A program made the position numbers and the translations under genes. From Bacteroidales bacterium (GTDB lineage: Bacteria; Bacteroidota; Bacteroidia; Bacteroidales; F082), in NCBI GenBank assembly GCA_015709215.1, contig JACCQN010000005.1, forward strand, positions 1-64,000: DNA of 64,000 bases, read 5' to 3'. Position 1 is the stretch's first letter. Every line of letters starts with the position of its first letter. Shown here piece by piece: positions 55,332-64,000 of the stretch. A model generated the notes under the pieces. That model saw nothing but the letters and a program-made list of their open reading frames with translations. It was not told the origin of the DNA and searched no databases.

Positions 55332-55368
55332 AAAAGCCCCTGTATTTCATAAGATCGGGGGCTTTTTT
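55332..55368. terminator. Bidirectional terminator, pepD / glycogen operon
   Basis: Stem AAAAGCCCC/GGGGCTTTT with a 17-base loop and T/A runs on both sides. It overlaps the stop codon of the minus-strand fusion gene. Confidence 0.85.
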
Positions 55369-58300
55369 AGCCAATCCACTTCACTAGCGGCAAGTCCTGC
55401 CTGTGAGGTAACAGTCTGTTTGTAGGATAAATTCTGAAAGTATAATCGTAAACCCCGGCTCTGTATATGGGCACGTTAATTTTGTAGGTAGCCCACCCAT
55501 CACCTGATTCAATAAGATCCATTTGTTCAACAAAAACAATCTCATCAATTTTATCGAAAAGTTTACGGCCAAAAAGCAACTCGATAGAAACATCGCCTGC
55601 CTGCAATCCAGGTGTATCCAACGTTATTTCAGCAATAAAGTTCTCTCCGAAATTGAGAGGTCGAATAGTTGGATCAGGAACTTTGATAGATTTTACGTCC
55701 AGCTGATCCCAGTGTTGCCTTATTTTTGTCTTCCAGTTATCAATTTCAAAAGCCGCCTCATAGCGGTTGGCATGCAGATGCTTTGCTCTTTCGGTTAGTT
55801 TATTATAGAAGCGATCGTAATAATTATCGAGCATGCGTTTCATAGTGAAATGAGGCGCAATTTCTGCTATATTGTTTTTGATAAATTGAATCCATTTATT
55901 AGGAATTCCGTTTTCGTTGCGGCTGAAGTAAGCGCTTGTGATATCATTTTCGAGTAAATTGTAGATCGTTTCAGCATCCAATTCATCTTGATATTGTTGG
56001 TTTTGATAGGTACGACCTTCCTGAATGGCCCATCCGGCATTTGGGCGATAACCTTCGGCCCACCAGCCATCGAGCACCGAAAAGTTTAAAACCCCGTTCA
56101 TAACAGCTTTTTCGCCACTGGTACCCGAGGCTTCGAGTGGACGTGTAGGCGTATTAAGCCAAACATCCACGCAATTTGTGAGCTTTTTCCCAAGCTCCAT
56201 ATCATAGTTCTCAATAAATAAAACCTTACCAATGAAATCAGGCATACGGGCAATTTCCATGATTCTTTTAATCAGGTCTTGTCCGGCTTTGTCATTTGGA
56301 TGGGCTTTGCCCGCAAAGAGGAAAAGAACAGGTTTTTCATTGTCATTAACGATTTGACTCAATCGCTCAAGATTGGCAAACAACAGGTAAGCCCGCTTAT
56401 AGGTTGCAAACCTACGGGCGAATCCAATAATCAGCGCATCTTTATTGAGATTTTCAAGTGTTTTCAGGATCAGTTTCGGGCTTTCCTGACGCTTCGTCAT
56501 ATCCTGTTTAACACGATATTTCACGAAGTGTATCAGCTCTTCTTTTAGCTGTGTTCTTATTGCCCAGATTGTTTCGTCCGGAACTTCTTTAATTTTACTC
56601 CATAGACTGGCATTTGACTGATTGTTAACAAAGTCTTCACCAAAAGTTTTCTGATAAAGTTGCTGCCAGGCCGAATCGGTCCAGGTGGGATAATGCACAC
56701 CATTTGTTACATGACCAATATGCAGCTCATTAGGAAAATATCCAGGATAAAGTGGTTGGAACATTTCTCTGGATACTCTTCCGTGAATTTGGCTTACACC
56801 ATTCATTTCCTGGCTTAGATTGGCTGCAAGCACACTCATTGAGAACTTCTCTGTTGGATCATCCGGGCGGAATTTACCTAAATTCATAAACTCGTTCCAG
56901 CTGATATTTAACCTGTTAGCATAATGTGGCATATAAGTTCGCAACAAATGTTCTTCAAAAGCATCGTGACCGGCCGGAACAGGTGTATGTGTGGTGAACA
57001 AACTGGAAGAACGAACCAGCTCGCGGGCAACATTAAAACTCAGGTTGTGACGTTCGATGTATGTTCTCAATCTTTCAAGACCAATAAAAGCTGAATGACC
57101 TTCATTACTGTGATAAATCAATGGTTTAAGATGCAGTTTCCACAATAATCTGATACCTCCAACACCAAGAATCATCTCTTGTTTGAAGCGCATTTCGTTA
57201 TCTCCTCCATAAAGCTGATGCGTGATACCGCGATCTTCTGGCTGGTTTTCTTCGATATCAGTATCAAGCAAATAAAGTGGAATACGACCCACGCTTACTT
57301 TCCATGCTTTGGCTACCACATTTCTTCCAGGAAAAGCAATGCTGATAGTGACCCAATCACCATTTTCATCTCGAACTGGTTCAAGAGGCAGGTGCGTGAA
57401 TTTCTGTGGAATATAGTTTGCCAGCTGATCACCAAAAAGAGAAATGTTTTGCGTAAAGTAACCATAACGGTAAAGCAATCCAATAGCCAGGAGGTTAGCG
57501 CCTGAGTCACTGGCCTCTTTAAGGTAATCACCAGCCAGGATACCAAGGCCTCCGGAGTAAATTTTCAAACTTTTTTGTAAGCCGTACTCCATACTGAAAT
57601 AAGCAATAAGATCCTCATAACGAGGTGCTTGTTTCATATAGCTTTTGAAAGAATCGTAAACTTTGTCTAGCTTTTGAATAAAAATAGTATCGTTTTCGAG
57701 TGCTTCCATTTGGTTTTTTGAAAGGCCCTCCATCATCGAAATGGGGTTTTGTTCAGATTTTTCCCATCCTTCCGGATCAATGGATTCAAAAAGCGAGTGA
57801 GCTTCATAATTCCATGACCACCATAGGTTTTTTGAGAGTTCCTGTAGTTTCTTGAGCCTTTTGGTATAAACGGGTTGGATAAGGACTTTTTTCCAGTTGG
57901 GTTGATCCTGCTTCCGGTAGTCAAAATTACGCAGGGTTTCAGTTTGGCGTTTTAGCTCAAACTGATCAGCCCGACCGGCCGATTTTTCTATGGCTTGATG
58001 CCAGGCTTGCTGATAATTTTGAATCAGGTCGGGCCACAGTGCTTTTGTTGCTGTTTGAAGGGAGGCTGTTCCCAAATTTTCCAGTTGTTGCTTCGATAAA
58101 CGGGAAAACTCTTCAATTACTTTTGAAATTTGATTAACAACGTCTTCATAATTATCTTCATCGCGGTGAATTACGGTTACAGCGTCTTTGGATGCTTCCG
58201 TTTGCTGAGCCCAAATACCAAAACCCGCCAGGTCAGTTGTGATAGTTGGGATAGCAAAAGCAATACTTTCGAGTGGTGTATAGCCCCATGGTTCGTAATA

Positions 58301-59596
58301 GGACGGGAAAACAGAGAGATCGAAAGCCGTTAGAAAATCGTAATAAGTAATATCGAAAATACCATCATTGCCATTAAGATAGGCGGGGACGAAAATTAAC
58401 TTCACCTTATCGGAAGGCTGATTATTGAGGCCGTTTTCCCTCATCTTACGAATCACCATATCTGAACCATCTTCAAAGAGGTGATGTGTAGCAGGTTCGT
58501 CAGTAGGATGCTTGGCTATTTCGGGCTCCGACAATCTTTTTTTCAAATCTTTTGAGGGGCCACTTATATTAGCAGGTACAGCTATTATGCCTAAGATGGT
58601 TTTTTTAAGTTTTTCGCTTTTGTTAAGCTTTGCCAAGGCATCAATAAAAACATCTATGCCTTTGTTTTTGAATTCATACCGTCCGCTGTTAATAACAAAA
58701 AGACTGTCTTCTGGCAAATTTTCGCCAACCAAAGCGCTAGCTATATTCAATATTTTATTGCGTGCGAGCTGACGTTTTTCTTTGAGCACTTCCCGATCTG
58801 CCATAAAATCCTTATCAAACCCATTGATGGTGATAACATCAGGTTTACGTCCCAGGAACTGTTCACATTCGGCAGCAGTACTTTCACTTACAGTTGTAAA
58901 GGAATCTGCCTCCTTCGCAGCTGTGTACTCGAGTGATTGTTGCGCAACGATATTCAACCGGTTAGCCATTACTGTTGGATTGTACTGTTTCAGATCTCTG
59001 TATAGCGGAAGTCCGTTGCCAGCTATTGATCGCCCAAGGTAGGTAGCATGCGTAGTGAAAACTGTGGCAATTTGTGGACAATGTCCTTTTACGTATAAAA
59101 CACCTGTGCCAGTCATCCATTCATGGAACTGGGCTACAACGTCTTCGGTTGGGTGAAGATAGGTGTCGTAAAAATTCTCTATCACCTGTCCGGCAGCATA
59201 GCCAAACATAGCAGGTTCGATATAGTCCCAGTGGCCATGGATAGAATCCAGTTTGAATTTTTCCCACAATTCAGTAAAAATAGTATCTTTTTGTACAAAT
59301 AAGGGTGTAAAATCTATCAAAATTGCTATTGGACGGCTTTTAATCGCCCATCGTCCAATTCTCACTTTAAGGCCTTTGGCAGCCAGTTTTTTTCGCCAAA
59401 CGGCATAAAGATTCAAATCTTCAATAAAATAAGGGTTTTCACTGGTTTCTTTCCACACATCCGGTCCAATGGTAATATAATGATCTCCGAAGAGATTGGT
59501 CATCTGGTTAGCTTTAGTCGAGAGCACAGTATAAATACCGCCGACCATATTGCAGACTTCCCAACTCGTTTCGAAAATGTAAGATGGTTTCTTCAT
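55367..59596 (-). CDS. Fused GT3-type glycogen synthase / GT35 alpha-glucan phosphorylase
   Basis: This 1409-residue cytoplasmic protein contains two complete enzymes. Residues about 1-560 are a GT3-like glycogen synthase: FETSWEVCNMVGGIYTVLST at the N-terminus, FTTHATYLGRSIAGNGLPLY, and the donor-site Glu region SVFPSYYEPWGYTPLESIAF. Residues about 578-1290 are an alpha-glucan phosphorylase: a DUF3417-like lead LQELSKNLWWSWNYEAHSLF, FSMEYGLQKSLKIYSGGLGI, and the PLP-lysine Lys1163 in EASGTSGEKAVMNGVLNFSV. The last 110 residues are beta-rich. The frame is continuous, with no internal stop. It combines glycogen synthesis with phosphorolysis and lies last in the glycogen operon. Confidence 0.9.
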   Translation of the reverse strand: MKKPSYIFETSWEVCNMVGGIYTVLSTKANQMTNLFGDHYITIGPDVWKETSENPYFIEDLNLYAVWRKKLAAKGLKVRIGRWAIKSRPIAILIDFTPLFVQKDTIFTELWEKFKLDSIHGHWDYIEPAMFGYAAGQVIENFYDTYLHPTEDVVAQFHEWMTGTGVLYVKGHCPQIATVFTTHATYLGRSIAGNGLPLYRDLKQYNPTVMANRLNIVAQQSLEYTAAKEADSFTTVSESTAAECEQFLGRKPDVITINGFDKDFMADREVLKEKRQLARNKILNIASALVGENLPEDSLFVINSGRYEFKNKGIDVFIDALAKLNKSEKLKKTILGIIAVPANISGPSKDLKKRLSEPEIAKHPTDEPATHHLFEDGSDMVIRKMRENGLNNQPSDKVKLIFVPAYLNGNDGIFDITYYDFLTAFDLSVFPSYYEPWGYTPLESIAFAIPTITTDLAGFGIWAQQTEASKDAVTVIHRDEDNYEDVVNQISKVIEEFSRLSKQQLENLGTASLQTATKALWPDLIQNYQQAWHQAIEKSAGRADQFELKRQTETLRNFDYRKQDQPNWKKVLIQPVYTKRLKKLQELSKNLWWSWNYEAHSLFESIDPEGWEKSEQNPISMMEGLSKNQMEALENDTIFIQKLDKVYDSFKSYMKQAPRYEDLIAYFSMEYGLQKSLKIYSGGLGILAGDYLKEASDSGANLLAIGLLYRYGYFTQNISLFGDQLANYIPQKFTHLPLEPVRDENGDWVTISIAFPGRNVVAKAWKVSVGRIPLYLLDTDIEENQPEDRGITHQLYGGDNEMRFKQEMILGVGGIRLLWKLHLKPLIYHSNEGHSAFIGLERLRTYIERHNLSFNVARELVRSSSLFTTHTPVPAGHDAFEEHLLRTYMPHYANRLNISWNEFMNLGKFRPDDPTEKFSMSVLAANLSQEMNGVSQIHGRVSREMFQPLYPGYFPNELHIGHVTNGVHYPTWTDSAWQQLYQKTFGEDFVNNQSNASLWSKIKEVPDETIWAIRTQLKEELIHFVKYRVKQDMTKRQESPKLILKTLENLNKDALIIGFARRFATYKRAYLLFANLERLSQIVNDNEKPVLFLFAGKAHPNDKAGQDLIKRIMEIARMPDFIGKVLFIENYDMELGKKLTNCVDVWLNTPTRPLEASGTSGEKAVMNGVLNFSVLDGWWAEGYRPNAGWAIQEGRTYQNQQYQDELDAETIYNLLENDITSAYFSRNENGIPNKWIQFIKNNIAEIAPHFTMKRMLDNYYDRFYNKLTERAKHLHANRYEAAFEIDNWKTKIRQHWDQLDVKSIKVPDPTIRPLNFGENFIAEITLDTPGLQAGDVSIELLFGRKLFDKIDEIVFVEQMDLIESGDGWATYKINVPIYRAGVYDYTFRIYPTNRLLPHRQDLPLVKWIG

Positions 59597-59691: not shown

Positions 59692-61275
59692 TCAGAAAAA
59701 ATTTTTCAGTTTTTCTTCCACTTTTTTGCGCATAGCTTGTATATCTTTTTGTTTGATTTCAGTCATTTTTTGCTGAAGATCTTCCATTTGCTTTTTAGCT
59801 TTCTGCGTGAGGTTTGGTATTACTTTCCCGCGTATTTCTTCGCTGGCATCTTTTAGGGCAACAGCTAGTTGCTCTGCCTCCAATTCCTTGATGAGTTTTT
59901 TTACCTTTGCATCAGAAAGATGCATGATATCTTCAAAAACGGGCTTACTTTTGGCTTTAGTTTGTTGGTATTTTTCTTTGACAGACTTTTCAGCTTCCTG
60001 AATTTTTTTTGAAGCCATTTTCCCCAATTCCTTCCCCAGTTTGCTTGTGTTTTTAAGCACATTATCCATTATTTCGGCTGCTCCAGGAGATTTTTCTTCA
60101 AGCCTGATTGCAAAGTCTGAAAGCACGTTCATATAATTTATATAAGCTTCGTAGGGAGAAGGGTATGGATTATAATATTTATGTACATCACCATCCGAAA
60201 GCCATTTGGTGCACATATAATAAAAATGGTCAGATGATTGCAAATAGTTCCAGTCGCGTTTCAAATCAACATCATCAACCTCCTCAATTTTTTCGGATAA
60301 GGCCGAGAGTTTTTCCAAGGCATCATCCTGAAGATTATTGCCAATCCAAGCCGAAAGATCACGTTCTTCATCTGCCCACGAAATGGGGTAGGGCACATGA
60401 ATGGAAGATACCGGTTGATGTTTTTTGGTAATTTCGTCGGGTGTGCGAAAGCGATAGGGGGAGTTTTTGATTACTGCCGAAGGAAGCGCTTTCATAAAAT
60501 CAAAAATACCTGAAGCGGCAGGTTGATGCTCACCAAAGGTTTCATAATCTACAAAGATATTGATAATTTCTTCTTTTTCAGGAAACTTATTCAGCCATCC
60601 AACCATTTTTTCAGCAGTAATTGGCCATTCCGACCAGTTTTGCTGCGAAAATCTGAAGGTGATATCGTCGCTTAGCCTGAAATTCCTAAGAAGTACTTTG
60701 AGCTTTGGATTGATGGCGTTTGTGTACATGAAATTAGGACTTTTCCATCCCAAAATATGTTTGGCGCCTTCGGTGAGCATCACTTTGTAGCCCATGGCAG
60801 CAACACGCTCGCCAATTTCATCAGAATAAATCAATTCTGTATTGCGGAAACTTGTTGGTTTTATGCCAAATAACTGCTTTACTTTTTGGGTATGTGCTTT
60901 CACCTGACGTTCAAATTCACCATTATTGCGCAGTGAACTTAGCGAATGCGCATAAGTTTCTGAAAGCACTTCGACATTACCGGTAGCAATTAATTTTCTG
61001 AAACTTTCCAGTACTTCGGGAGTATATAATTCCATCTGTTCCAAAACAAGGCCTGTAAACGAAAAGCTTAGCCTGAAATCTTTTGGATGTTCCTTTATGA
61101 TATTTAGCAGGATTTCGTTCATTGGCAAGTAGCTTTTTTCTGCTACTCTCCTTAAAATGAGTCGATTGAAATATTCATCGAAGTAATGATGGTTTTTGCC
61201 GATATCAAAGAATCGATAAGTTCGCAGACGAAATGGCTGATGAACTTGAAAATAAAGACAGATAGACTTATTCAT
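59692..61275 (-). CDS. GH57 family glycoside hydrolase with C-terminal coiled-coil tail
   Basis: The protein has 527 residues. The GH57 domain (about 1-385) begins ICLYFQVHQPFRLR. The probable nucleophile is Glu147 in SFRNTELIYSDEIG and the acid is Asp243 in IFVDYETFGEHQ. Residues 400-527 form a Lys/Glu-rich coiled coil (KELGKMASKKIQEAEKSVKE, MEDLQQKMTEIKQKDIQAMR) that is not part of the catalytic fold. The family acts on alpha-glucans as alpha-amylase or transferase. It begins 20 bases after the GT4 gene. No signal peptide is present, so it acts on internal glycogen. Confidence 0.88.
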   Translation of the reverse strand: MNKSICLYFQVHQPFRLRTYRFFDIGKNHHYFDEYFNRLILRRVAEKSYLPMNEILLNIIKEHPKDFRLSFSFTGLVLEQMELYTPEVLESFRKLIATGNVEVLSETYAHSLSSLRNNGEFERQVKAHTQKVKQLFGIKPTSFRNTELIYSDEIGERVAAMGYKVMLTEGAKHILGWKSPNFMYTNAINPKLKVLLRNFRLSDDITFRFSQQNWSEWPITAEKMVGWLNKFPEKEEIINIFVDYETFGEHQPAASGIFDFMKALPSAVIKNSPYRFRTPDEITKKHQPVSSIHVPYPISWADEERDLSAWIGNNLQDDALEKLSALSEKIEEVDDVDLKRDWNYLQSSDHFYYMCTKWLSDGDVHKYYNPYPSPYEAYINYMNVLSDFAIRLEEKSPGAAEIMDNVLKNTSKLGKELGKMASKKIQEAEKSVKEKYQQTKAKSKPVFEDIMHLSDAKVKKLIKELEAEQLAVALKDASEEIRGKVIPNLTQKAKKQMEDLQQKMTEIKQKDIQAMRKKVEEKLKNFF

Positions 61276-61295: not shown

Positions 61296-62591
61296 TTATC
61301 TATTTTTAAAATCTTCCAGGGCTGAGGTATAAACTTCTTTTACTTTAGCAGCGGCGTGCTCCCATTTGAGGTTTTCCACCTCTTGTTTGCCATATTTGAT
61401 AAAATCCTCACTGAGTGCCTGATAATGACACAAACCATAGATGGCATCGGCAAGTCCGTCGATGTCCCAAAAATCAACTTTAATGGCATGCTTCAAAATT
61501 TCAGAAACACCGGATTGTTTAGAAATGACAACCGGAACATTAGAACGCATGGCTTCGAGTGGCACAATACCAAAAGGCTCAGAAATAGATGGCATCACAA
61601 AAACATCTGTCATGGCAAACATCTGATCCACATCATCGCCTTTCAGGAAACCGGTAAAATGAAATTTATGTCCAATCCGAAGTTGCGCCACACGCATCAC
61701 CATACGATGCAACAGATCGCCTGTTCCTGCCATCACAAAACGCACATTGTTATCTCTTTTCAGAATCTTATTGGCTGCTTCCACAAAATATTCAGGTCCT
61801 TTTTGAAAGGTAATCCGACCCAGAAAGGTCACCACTTTTTCTTTGATCTGCTTTTCTGCATCAGACAGTTCCTTTTCTTTAGGATCAACGGCATTGTGGA
61901 CGGTGACTACTTTGGAAGGGTCAATACCGTAGCGTTCAATCACGATACGACGGGTAAGATTACTTACAGTTATCACGCGATCAGCCGCTTCCATGCCACG
62001 TTTTTCAATGGCATACACATCAGAGTTGATGTTTTCGCCGGAGCGATCAAATTCTGTAGCATGCATATGCACCACCAAAGGCTTTCCAGTGGTTTCTTTA
62101 GCCGCAATACCAGCTAAATAAGTAAGCCAGTCGTGTGCATGGATAACATCAAAATCCTGTTTGGTTGCTATGGCACTTCCAACGAGTGCATAGCGTGCCA
62201 CTTCTTCCATCAGGTTGAGGCCGTATTTGCCCGAAAACTCATATTTCTGAGAAAAAACCTTGCTCTTGAAGTTTTCGCTGGCACGTTTTTCCAACTCAGT
62301 CACTTTGTTAAATTCTTCCGGACCAACATAAGGAATGATATTGGAACCCACTTCCATGTATTGCACCCTGTCCCAGTATTCGCGTTCTTCATCAATTTCC
62401 AGATTAATAGTTACTTCACTGGCATTAACAATGCGCACAGCTTCCTGGTTTTCGTCGCCGTAGGCTTTTGGAACCACAAAAATGATGTCGGTATCATGTT
62501 TTACCAGTCCTTTTGTCAATCCAAAGCAGGCAGTTCCGAGCCCGCCGGTGATGTGAGGTGGAAATTCCCAACCGAACATAAGTATTTTCAT
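61296..62591 (-). CDS. GT4-family glycogen/alpha-glucan glycosyltransferase
   Basis: This 431-residue GT-B enzyme starts MKILMFGWEFPPHITGGLGT, the KTGGL-like loop of glycogen-synthase relatives. FDVIHAHDWLTYLAGIAAKE, FLGRITFQKGPEYFVEAANK and the GT4 donor motif SISEPFGIVPLEAMRSNVPV are all present. ATG 62591 is chosen as the family-conserved start; the frame extends 22 codons upstream into the debranching-enzyme gene. It lies 11 bases from the debranching-enzyme stop. Its role is probably glucan priming or elongation alongside the GT3 domain. Confidence 0.88.
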   Translation of the reverse strand: MKILMFGWEFPPHITGGLGTACFGLTKGLVKHDTDIIFVVPKAYGDENQEAVRIVNASEVTINLEIDEEREYWDRVQYMEVGSNIIPYVGPEEFNKVTELEKRASENFKSKVFSQKYEFSGKYGLNLMEEVARYALVGSAIATKQDFDVIHAHDWLTYLAGIAAKETTGKPLVVHMHATEFDRSGENINSDVYAIEKRGMEAADRVITVSNLTRRIVIERYGIDPSKVVTVHNAVDPKEKELSDAEKQIKEKVVTFLGRITFQKGPEYFVEAANKILKRDNNVRFVMAGTGDLLHRMVMRVAQLRIGHKFHFTGFLKGDDVDQMFAMTDVFVMPSISEPFGIVPLEAMRSNVPVVISKQSGVSEILKHAIKVDFWDIDGLADAIYGLCHYQALSEDFIKYGKQEVENLKWEHAAAKVKEVYTSALEDFKNR

Positions 62592-62602
62592 AGGGTGTCG
62601 TT

Positions 62603-64000
62603 TTATTGGTTTTGCTGGATAAGGTAGTTCAAACGAAGCAAAGCTGCAACATTCCATGCCTGCGAAATAGCTCCTCTTGCGGCATGGGGCGGGTCGCCAT
62701 CGTAAACCTCTGAAACTGAGCCTAGTCCGCTTTCGTGCATAACTTCCTCAAAGTTGTGATAGAGTTCTTCAATAAAAGGAAGCGCCCCCTTGCCATGAAG
62801 TTTGAGCCAGGCTTCTGCGAAATGATCGATCAGCCACGGAAATACAGTTCCCTGATGGTAGGCATGGTCTCTTTCCTCCTGATTGCCCCAGAGAATCCCT
62901 TTATATTTCGGGTTTTTGGGCGAAAGACTTCGCAATCCTCTTGTAGTAAGTAATTCGGAGCGAACAGTATTAAGTATTTTAGCTTTAATCTCGTCGCCCA
63001 GCGGACTAAAAGGCAAAGAAACAGCAAAAAGCATATTTGGCCGAACGGAGAAGTCTTTCTTATTGTCATTTACAACATCAGCCATGCGCGAATTTTCTGC
63101 ATCCCAAAATACTTCAACAAAAGCATTCTGGATGATTGACGGGAGATTTTTCCACTGTTTAATAAACGACTCGTCTTTGGCCTCAGCAGCAAAATCAAGC
63201 GCCATCCGAACGGCATTATACCAAAGGGCATTCACTTCAACGGCAAGTCCGTCGCGTGGTGTAACTGCTTTGCCTTTCGAAACAACATCCATCCAAGTGA
63301 GTGCCTGACCATTTTCTCCGGCGTGGATCAAGCCATTTTGGAGCATCCGGATATTATAAACCGTACCATTGCGATAGTTGTCCAGAATTATGATGAGCGT
63401 GCTGCCATATGTTTTCCAGATGAATTTTTTGCTTTTTCCACTAATCTCATGATATTGCTGAAGCGTCCAGAAAAACCATAGTGGAGCATCCACAGCTGCA
63501 AATGCTTCGGGGTTTCGCCTGTTGAAGTTCGGAAAAAGCGGACCTTGCATGCTTTGAATCATGGTATCGAGCACGGCTTTGAAACTTTTTTCGTCATTCC
63601 GAGTCAGGGTTATTCCTGGAAGGGCAATAAATGTGTCGCGACCCCAAGTCCCAAACCATGGGAAACCAGCCATTAATGTGGTTTTATCGGAGCTTTTAAC
63701 AATAAATTGTTCAGCTGCATTGAGCAAACAATTTTTAAAATTATTCCGTGGAGTACGTTTCTTAATTTCAGCAGAAAACTGTTGTTTAAATCGTTCTGGT
63801 TCTTTAGCTTCCAGCCCGGCCGACACGATGACACTTTCACCTTTTTTGAGTGGCATTTCAAAAAATCCGGGGACCAATAAGTCTTCCTGATATGCAAATC
63901 CACGCTCTTTTTCGCGGATGTATTCTATATTGAAATACCAGTCGGGGACATGAGTATATTCATTTGCCTTTGAAAGCTGGAAAAATAGTGGCGAATAGCC
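62603..64000 (-). CDS. Glycogen debranching enzyme (amylo-1,6-glucosidase type), 5' end beyond window
   Basis: 465 codons are visible; the frame is open to the right edge (YSPLFFQLSKANEYTHVPDW), so the start lies outside. The N-terminal GDE domain tail reads DLLVPGFFEMPLKKGESVIV. The catalytic (alpha/alpha)6 barrel carries AGFPWFGTWGRDTFIALPGI, with the catalytic Asp region DMVPRDGLAVEVNALWYNAV-like (TPRDGLAVEVNALWYNAVRM). The end is GAISQAWNVAALLRL. It removes alpha-1,6 branch stubs of glycogen. It is the first gene seen of the operon that continues with GT4, GH57 and the GT3-GT35 fusion. Confidence 0.92.
   Translation of the reverse strand, partial: GYSPLFFQLSKANEYTHVPDWYFNIEYIREKERGFAYQEDLLVPGFFEMPLKKGESVIVSAGLEAKEPERFKQQFSAEIKKRTPRNNFKNCLLNAAEQFIVKSSDKTTLMAGFPWFGTWGRDTFIALPGITLTRNDEKSFKAVLDTMIQSMQGPLFPNFNRRNPEAFAAVDAPLWFFWTLQQYHEISGKSKKFIWKTYGSTLIIILDNYRNGTVYNIRMLQNGLIHAGENGQALTWMDVVSKGKAVTPRDGLAVEVNALWYNAVRMALDFAAEAKDESFIKQWKNLPSIIQNAFVEVFWDAENSRMADVVNDNKKDFSVRPNMLFAVSLPFSPLGDEIKAKILNTVRSELLTTRGLRSLSPKNPKYKGILWGNQEERDHAYHQGTVFPWLIDHFAEAWLKLHGKGALPFIEELYHNFEEVMHESGLGSVSEVYDGDPPHAARGAISQAWNVAALLRLNYLIQQNQ

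Follow-up and report, generated by a model that had tools for sequence, protein, structure and literature searches.

A glycogen synthase and a glycogen phosphorylase joined in one conserved protein of Bacteroidales

A 64,000-nucleotide stretch of DNA from a Bacteroidales bacterium (assembly GCA_015709215.1, contig JACCQN010000005.1, positions 1 to 64,000; hereafter the window) carries a gene in which a glycogen synthase of glycosyltransferase family 3 (GT3) is fused to an alpha-glucan phosphorylase of family 35 (GT35). Glycogen synthase and glycogen phosphorylase are a textbook pair of enzymes, kept apart and counter-regulated. The fused GT3-GT35 protein is real, conserved and common within the order Bacteroidales. 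Both halves are of known families, and it is their combination that is unusual and well conserved.

A single open frame holds both enzymes

The gene lies on the minus strand (55367–59596) as an uninterrupted frame of 1409 codons plus a stop; the plus-strand reading of the same interval is riddled with stops. Pfam searches of the protein placed Glycogen_syn (PF05693) from residue 9 in two stretches (334.1 bits against a cut-off of 27), DUF3417 at residues 579–677 and Phosphorylase at 828–1177, and the NCBIfam model TIGR02094 matched residues 664–1266 with 844.3 bits (cut-off 191.7). The classical GlgP/MalP model TIGR02093 (89.5 bits, cut-off 552.9) and the GT5 GlgA model TIGR02095 (27.4 bits, cut-off 328.45) both stayed below threshold. 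By family assignment the N-terminal half (residues 1–545) is a GT3 glycogen synthase and the C-terminal half (residues 579–1409) is a GT35 alpha-glucan phosphorylase of the DUF3417/TIGR02094 type. A first-pass annotation of the window, made from the letters alone, had described one unbroken 1409-residue frame joining the two families, and the open frame and the Pfam and NCBIfam matches bear this out; the start FETSWEVCNMVGGIYTV and the pyridoxal phosphate (PLP) lysine K1163 are also as it gave them. In the source genome, which is 97% complete and whose nearest relatives in the species scan are Bacteroidales records, there is one PF05693 gene (two stretches in one frame) and one TIGR02094 gene, and both are the fusion gene. 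Long Bacteroidota proteins of this kind are entered in protein databases as alpha-glucan family phosphorylase. Promoter and terminator scans around the gene returned counts near those of shuffles.

Residue conservation was counted over 84 fused proteins, with the principal sites given in Table 1. In the synthase half, we take R306 and K312 to be the equivalents of yeast R320 and K326, with a role in binding the donor phosphate, and E435-x7-E443 to be the GT3 catalytic motif by analogy with the yeast enzyme. In the phosphorylase half, H870, R1062, K1067 and E1155 are each invariant (84/84); together with K1163 they are presumably the PLP and phosphate-site residues, by analogy with the E. coli and rabbit phosphorylases. 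Alignment of both halves, as the annotation had proposed, found the key positions kept in each, and the 84-protein alignment rules out that the fusion in the window has lost catalytic residues. The phosphorylase half is closer to the window protein by identity than the synthase half in all 83 comparisons, and this asymmetry, together with the synthase changes and losses described below, suggests that of the two activities phosphorolysis can be spared less easily.

The annotation had also remarked on a Glu in the motif SGEKAVMNG, at a position where Met is usual. The Glu is present, although it is no oddity of this protein: the residue before the PLP lysine is Glu in 77 of the 84 fused proteins, Met in 4 and Gln in 3. 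Met occupies the position in 14 of 14 long-type outgroup phosphorylases, and 30 loci of the shorter phosphorylase type of the phylum divide into Gln (14), Glu (13) and Met (3). SGEKA with the same Glu also occurs in the solved Segatella copri glycogen phosphorylase (PDB 9l6i, 20yr), a TIGR02094/DUF3417-type enzyme that is 54% identical to the model where the two align. Structure 9l6i aligns to the whole phosphorylase half (residues 564–1408), SGEKA included, and shares its C-terminal beta domain (~1300–1409); the solved S. copri chain has 852 residues and no synthase half.

The nearest solved kin of the synthase half by sequence and fold are human GYS1, yeast Gsy2p and the worm structure 4qlb, at ~28% identity. 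These eukaryotic synthases and the fusion have in common a GT-B type fold match, the E-x7-E motif and the donor Arg and Lys. The eukaryotic enzymes differ in lacking a phosphorylase half and in possessing an arginine control helix, which in the human protein we take to be the R579–R591 cluster, the control helix of the eukaryotic synthase controlled by glucose 6-phosphate. The window residues aligned to this helix are K502, Q503, L505, G509, A511 and Q514; these positions are mixed among the 84 fused proteins, with Arg the commonest residue at one only (509, 31/84). In the phylum's second type of GT3, a basic helix stands at the control position in 12 of 12 rows.

The fusion is common within Bacteroidales

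Relatives were gathered in a scan with one genome per species, from which the best 80 of 578 were taken. Both halves lie in one intact frame of more than 1350 codons in 77 of these 80. One of the remaining three ends at a contig edge and two are broken within the phosphorylase, and the junction itself is joined in 80 of 80. Since the same junction recurs on separate contigs, an assembly error as its source is ruled out.

In a Bacteroidales sample of 149 genomes, 136 have a TIGR02094 phosphorylase. Its frame is at least 1300 codons long in 97 of them, 900–1299 in 7, 800–899 in 30 and below 800 in 2. The 97 longest were counted as fused, and the 7 of 900–1299 codons and the 2 below 800 were left unsorted between fused and split. 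A GT3 match in the same frame was found for 48 of the 97 among the matches listed; the other 49 fall outside those matches, and none contradicts the assignment. The suggestion that related fusions may occur elsewhere in the phylum holds within Bacteroidales, where 97 of the 136 genomes with the phosphorylase were counted as fused. The search across Bacteroidota that the annotation had called for found the fusion in Bacteroidales and, among the matches listed, not outside the order: in 198 genomes of the phylum the longest listed frame besides the window's own is at most 910 codons. GT3 of any type was present in 339 of 393 Bacteroidales genomes versus 21 of 395 genomes in a phylum-wide sample, where 5 were of the fused-family type (all Bacteroidales), 13 were of a higher-scoring eukaryote-like type and 3 were under the cut-off.

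Three further observations concern individual records. A second, eukaryote-like GT3 synthase occurs in some Bacteroidota as frames of ~610–800 codons (L082–L094, L103, L110–L120). One fusion-bearing record, L079, is titled Chlorobiota bacterium and sits firmly within the Bacteroidales rows of the GT35 tree; it may have been binned or named wrongly. A frame of 1878 codons in genome G429 has an upstream extension of ~470 codons that overlaps a 479-codon open reading frame (ORF) in another frame, and the extension was taken as a chance open frame.

Split and synthase-less relatives

In one clade of Bacteroidales the synthase and the phosphorylase are encoded by two neighbouring genes (27 loci). 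These tandem pairs consist of the same two proteins in the same order and on the same strand as the fusion; they differ in being two genes, with gaps of 1–168 bp, and in having none of the GH133, GT4 and GH57 neighbours described below within 1.1–1.7 kb upstream. Among the 30 sampled genomes with an 800–899-codon phosphorylase frame, 28 were covered (all except G527 and G536), giving 20 tandem pairs and 8 genomes without a GT3 directly upstream. Three of the eight (G435, G465, G480) have a GT3 at another locus, in G465 of the eukaryote-like type only. In four, the phosphorylase directly follows a GH57 gene (L230, L237, L243, L244). In the GT35 tree L243 falls inside an otherwise fused clade (support 99), and L230 and L244 are placed together with a fused row (95). 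These positions point to synthase loss; in some lineages the synthase appears to have been lost and the phosphorylase kept.

In a quick GT35 tree the split clade was nested inside fused rows. The split state formed one clade of 27 rows in the GT3 tree and, in the GT35 tree, a clade of 29 rows made up of the 27 split loci and 2 with phosphorylase alone, each with a Shimodaira–Hasegawa-like approximate likelihood ratio test (SH-aLRT) value of 100. A tree constrained to keep every fused row in a single clade was not rejected with GT35 (approximately unbiased test, p-AU 0.613; the 8 phosphorylase-only rows and 4 outgroup rows were excluded here) or with GT3 (p 0.874), the constrained tree having the higher likelihood in both, nor with a joined alignment of 26 fused, 15 split and 8 outgroup rows (p 0.219). 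The trees do not contain L144, L157, L158 and L159, whose frames are broken or run into a contig edge, nor the 38 fused proteins (of 84) that were removed by thinning; the outgroup included L241, a phosphorylase without a neighbouring GT3, and the second copies L245 and L246. The change between the fused and split states may have been a fusion or a fission, as these sequence trees are compatible with either. Family code f75 includes both forms, L239 differing in this from L143 and L147, and the fused and split forms are apart in both trees; transfer or a broad family is possible.

The linker and predicted structure

Structures were modelled for residues 1–1200 and 330–1409, in each case from an alignment of 47 sequences (the fusion itself and 46 fused relatives). 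The mean predicted local distance difference test score (pLDDT) was 84.3 in each model, and both halves were mostly well predicted. Values below 50 fell in the linker, at residues 552–571 in the first model and at 546–560 and 565–570 in the second. The predicted template modelling score (pTM) was 0.56 for the model with the whole synthase half and 0.74 for that with part of it; together with the linker values, the former means low confidence in the relative placement of the halves. The segment from A535 to W568 measures 34 residues in 68 of the 84 and varies between 32 and 36 over the whole set. A near-constant length combined with predicted disorder fits a tether, as opposed to a fixed face-to-face arrangement.

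A hidden internal start for a separate phosphorylase was considered and rejected. The window linker contains no in-frame ATG, GTG or TTG, and such codons are not a conserved feature of the 84 fused genes, where ATG is found in 27, only GTG or TTG in 37 and none in 20.

Proposed role and alternatives

We propose that the fusion co-targets synthesis and phosphorolysis in a 1:1 ratio to one glycogen granule, with the direction set by metabolites; we rate this reading, drawn from sequence comparison, at roughly even chances. The N-terminal half would lengthen chain ends with glucose supplied by a nucleotide sugar, probably UDP-glucose, and the C-terminal half would shorten ends of the same kind, releasing glucose 1-phosphate. 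The fusion would fix the ratio of the two and bring both activities to the same granule, so that the net direction would follow phosphate, nucleotide sugar and glucose 1-phosphate. The price would be some simultaneous synthesis and breakdown (glycogen cycling), either as a cost or as the purpose. This arrangement is favoured because a small-molecule channel is unlikely and the control helix is unconserved. Further points in its favour are the domain matches, the retained catalytic positions, the frame shared by relatives, the recurrent gene row upstream, the tether-like linker, and a source genome that has a GlgB-like branching enzyme and, among its four PF00483 matches, no GlgC above the cut-off. 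A bolder version, in which the fusion is an order-wide glycogen turnover machine whose opposing 1:1 enzymes are directed by metabolite ratios alone, with cycling as an energy buffer or spill, is speculative and on the whole doubtful.

Several observations weigh against co-targeting. Four fused relatives (L058–L061) have Pro at R306 and Arg at K312 with the phosphorylase site intact, and their synthase half may be impaired. Five of the eight genomes without an upstream GT3 (G398, G489, G496, G497, G515) have no PF05693 match at all. The tandem clade does without fusion at its 27 loci, and the covalent link is to that extent dispensable. Finally, none of the four PF00483 matches in the source genome reaches the GalU cut-off (best 84.1 of 326.8 bits).

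The fusion could instead merely co-express two enzymes at a fixed ratio, the link being otherwise without a role and equivalent to a tandem pair. The close spacing and the retained order and strand of the tandem pairs agree with this, as does the linker disorder predicted in both models. However, if the link were neutral, there would be no need to keep the two enzymes fused, with a 32–36-residue linker, over deep divergence, and we regard mere co-expression as a tentative explanation, rather improbable as it stands.

It is unlikely that the phosphorylase half, running synthetically or trimming, supplies the synthase with primers of the right length in place of glycogenin. A review states that eukaryotic GT3 synthases require a glycogenin primer and that phosphorylases are reversible (PMC11046441), which suits such a role; yet the same kind of phosphorylase is kept where the synthase has been split off or lost.

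The synthase half might also be, in the main, a module that binds glycogen on behalf of the phosphorylase or controls it. Its lower conservation and the changed donor residues of L058–L061 would be expected from such a module, but all 84 fused proteins retain E435 and E443. Moreover, only 11 of the 339 Bacteroidales genomes with GT3 have a full-length GT3 of the other type as their best match, so most genomes have no listed substitute synthase, and a PF05693 search found no other-type GT3 in the source genome. We consider this role quite improbable.

The first-pass annotation had suggested that the fusion may allow substrate channelling, with a structure prediction to see whether the active sites face each other, or a switch between synthesis and breakdown. 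Physical proximity is all that speaks for these ideas. Channelling is unsupported: the halves share no small-molecule intermediate, only the glycogen chain end. Glucose 1-phosphate, which the phosphorylase releases, is not what the synthase uses; to return as nucleotide sugar it needs a separate pyrophosphorylase, and Pfam found no such domain in the protein, making small-molecule channelling unlikely. The low linker pLDDT and the pTM of 0.56 place the halves with too little confidence to speak for facing sites or to dismiss them. A built-in switch likewise finds no support in the sequence, since the eukaryotic arginine control helix is unconserved in the family. Both ideas appear very improbable. 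An assembly error joining two genes has a negligible chance, given the junction shared by the relatives described above.

The interest of the fusion lies in an opposing pair that is often one chain or two tightly linked genes in an order that includes gut and rumen bacteria. It is relevant to the initiation, control and cycling of glycogen in such bacteria, and to the energy that this cycling may drain in the rumen, and the natural series of fused, split, synthase-lost and synthase-site-changed forms makes the role of the link testable. No description of a GT3-GT35 fusion was found in the accessible portions of open-licence full texts, including PMC11046441, PMC10395257, PMC4432691 and PMC5702140; the first, a 2024 review of alpha-glucan enzymes, treats Bacteroidetes GT3 and does not mention the fusion in those portions. 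The review also describes TreS-Mak/Pep2 and GlgB-MalQ, which are likewise fusions within glucan metabolism, of other enzymes (PMC11046441). TreS-Mak joins consecutive steps, whereas the GT3-GT35 fusion joins opposing ones.

Gene neighbourhood and glycogen metabolism of the source genome

Table 1. Positions in the window of the fusion gene, its parts and its upstream neighbours
Feature	Positions	Strand	Basis
Whole GT3-GT35 fusion gene	55367–59596	-	Open frame; relatives with both halves in one frame
GT3 glycogen synthase half, residues 1–545	57962–59596	-	PF05693; nearest solved kin by sequence and fold
R306...K312, putative donor-phosphate residues	58661–58681	-	R306 in 79/84, K312 in 80/84 fused proteins
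E435-x7-E443, putative GT3 catalytic motif	58268–58294	-	84/84 fused proteins
Linker, ~residues 546–571	57884–57961	-	pLDDT <50 in both models
DUF3417, N-terminal domain of phosphorylase half, residues 579–677	57566–57862	-	PF11897
GT35 catalytic part, residues 664–1266	55799–57607	-	TIGR02094
K1163, putative PLP lysine	56108–56110	-	84/84; aligned with E. coli maltodextrin phosphorylase
C-terminal beta domain, ~residues 1300–1409	55370–55699	-	Aligned to end of 9l6i; strands in second model
Upstream GH57 protein with FliG_C-like tail	59692–61275	-	PF03065, PF01706
Upstream GT4 glycosyltransferase	61296–62657	-	PF00534/PF13439; TIGR02149 below cut-off
GH133 debranching enzyme, running past window end	62603–64000	-	PF06202; frame open to window end; whole gene in L265

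The fusion is the last gene of a row GH133-GT4-GH57-fusion, and the three upstream genes precede it in 56 of the 61 relatives with more than 5 kb of upstream sequence. The GH133 debranching enzyme has 648 residues in the full contig. The GT4 gene probably starts ~66 bases downstream of the listed ORF start, which would make its product 431 residues long, as in L002.

Elsewhere in the genome there is a GlgB-like branching enzyme, whose frame is cut in the locus and which scores under the curated cut-offs, with GlgB models best. None of the four PF00483 matches in the genome reaches the GlgC cut-off (best 52.6 of 424.9 bits). A search for a UDPGP-type pyrophosphorylase (PF01704) was uninformative, as it gave no match in any control. 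A review describes Bacteroidetes as lacking GlgC (PMC10395257).

The GH57 protein ends in a FliG_C-like C-terminal tail (PF01706, E 3.9e-13), which is present in three of five relatives (L056, L005 and L008, and not L061 or L022). The GT4 enzyme resembles the glgA_Coryne type, with 138.1 bits for TIGR02149, below the cut-off of 302.4, and from this likeness GT3 may not be the only route by which glucan is built.

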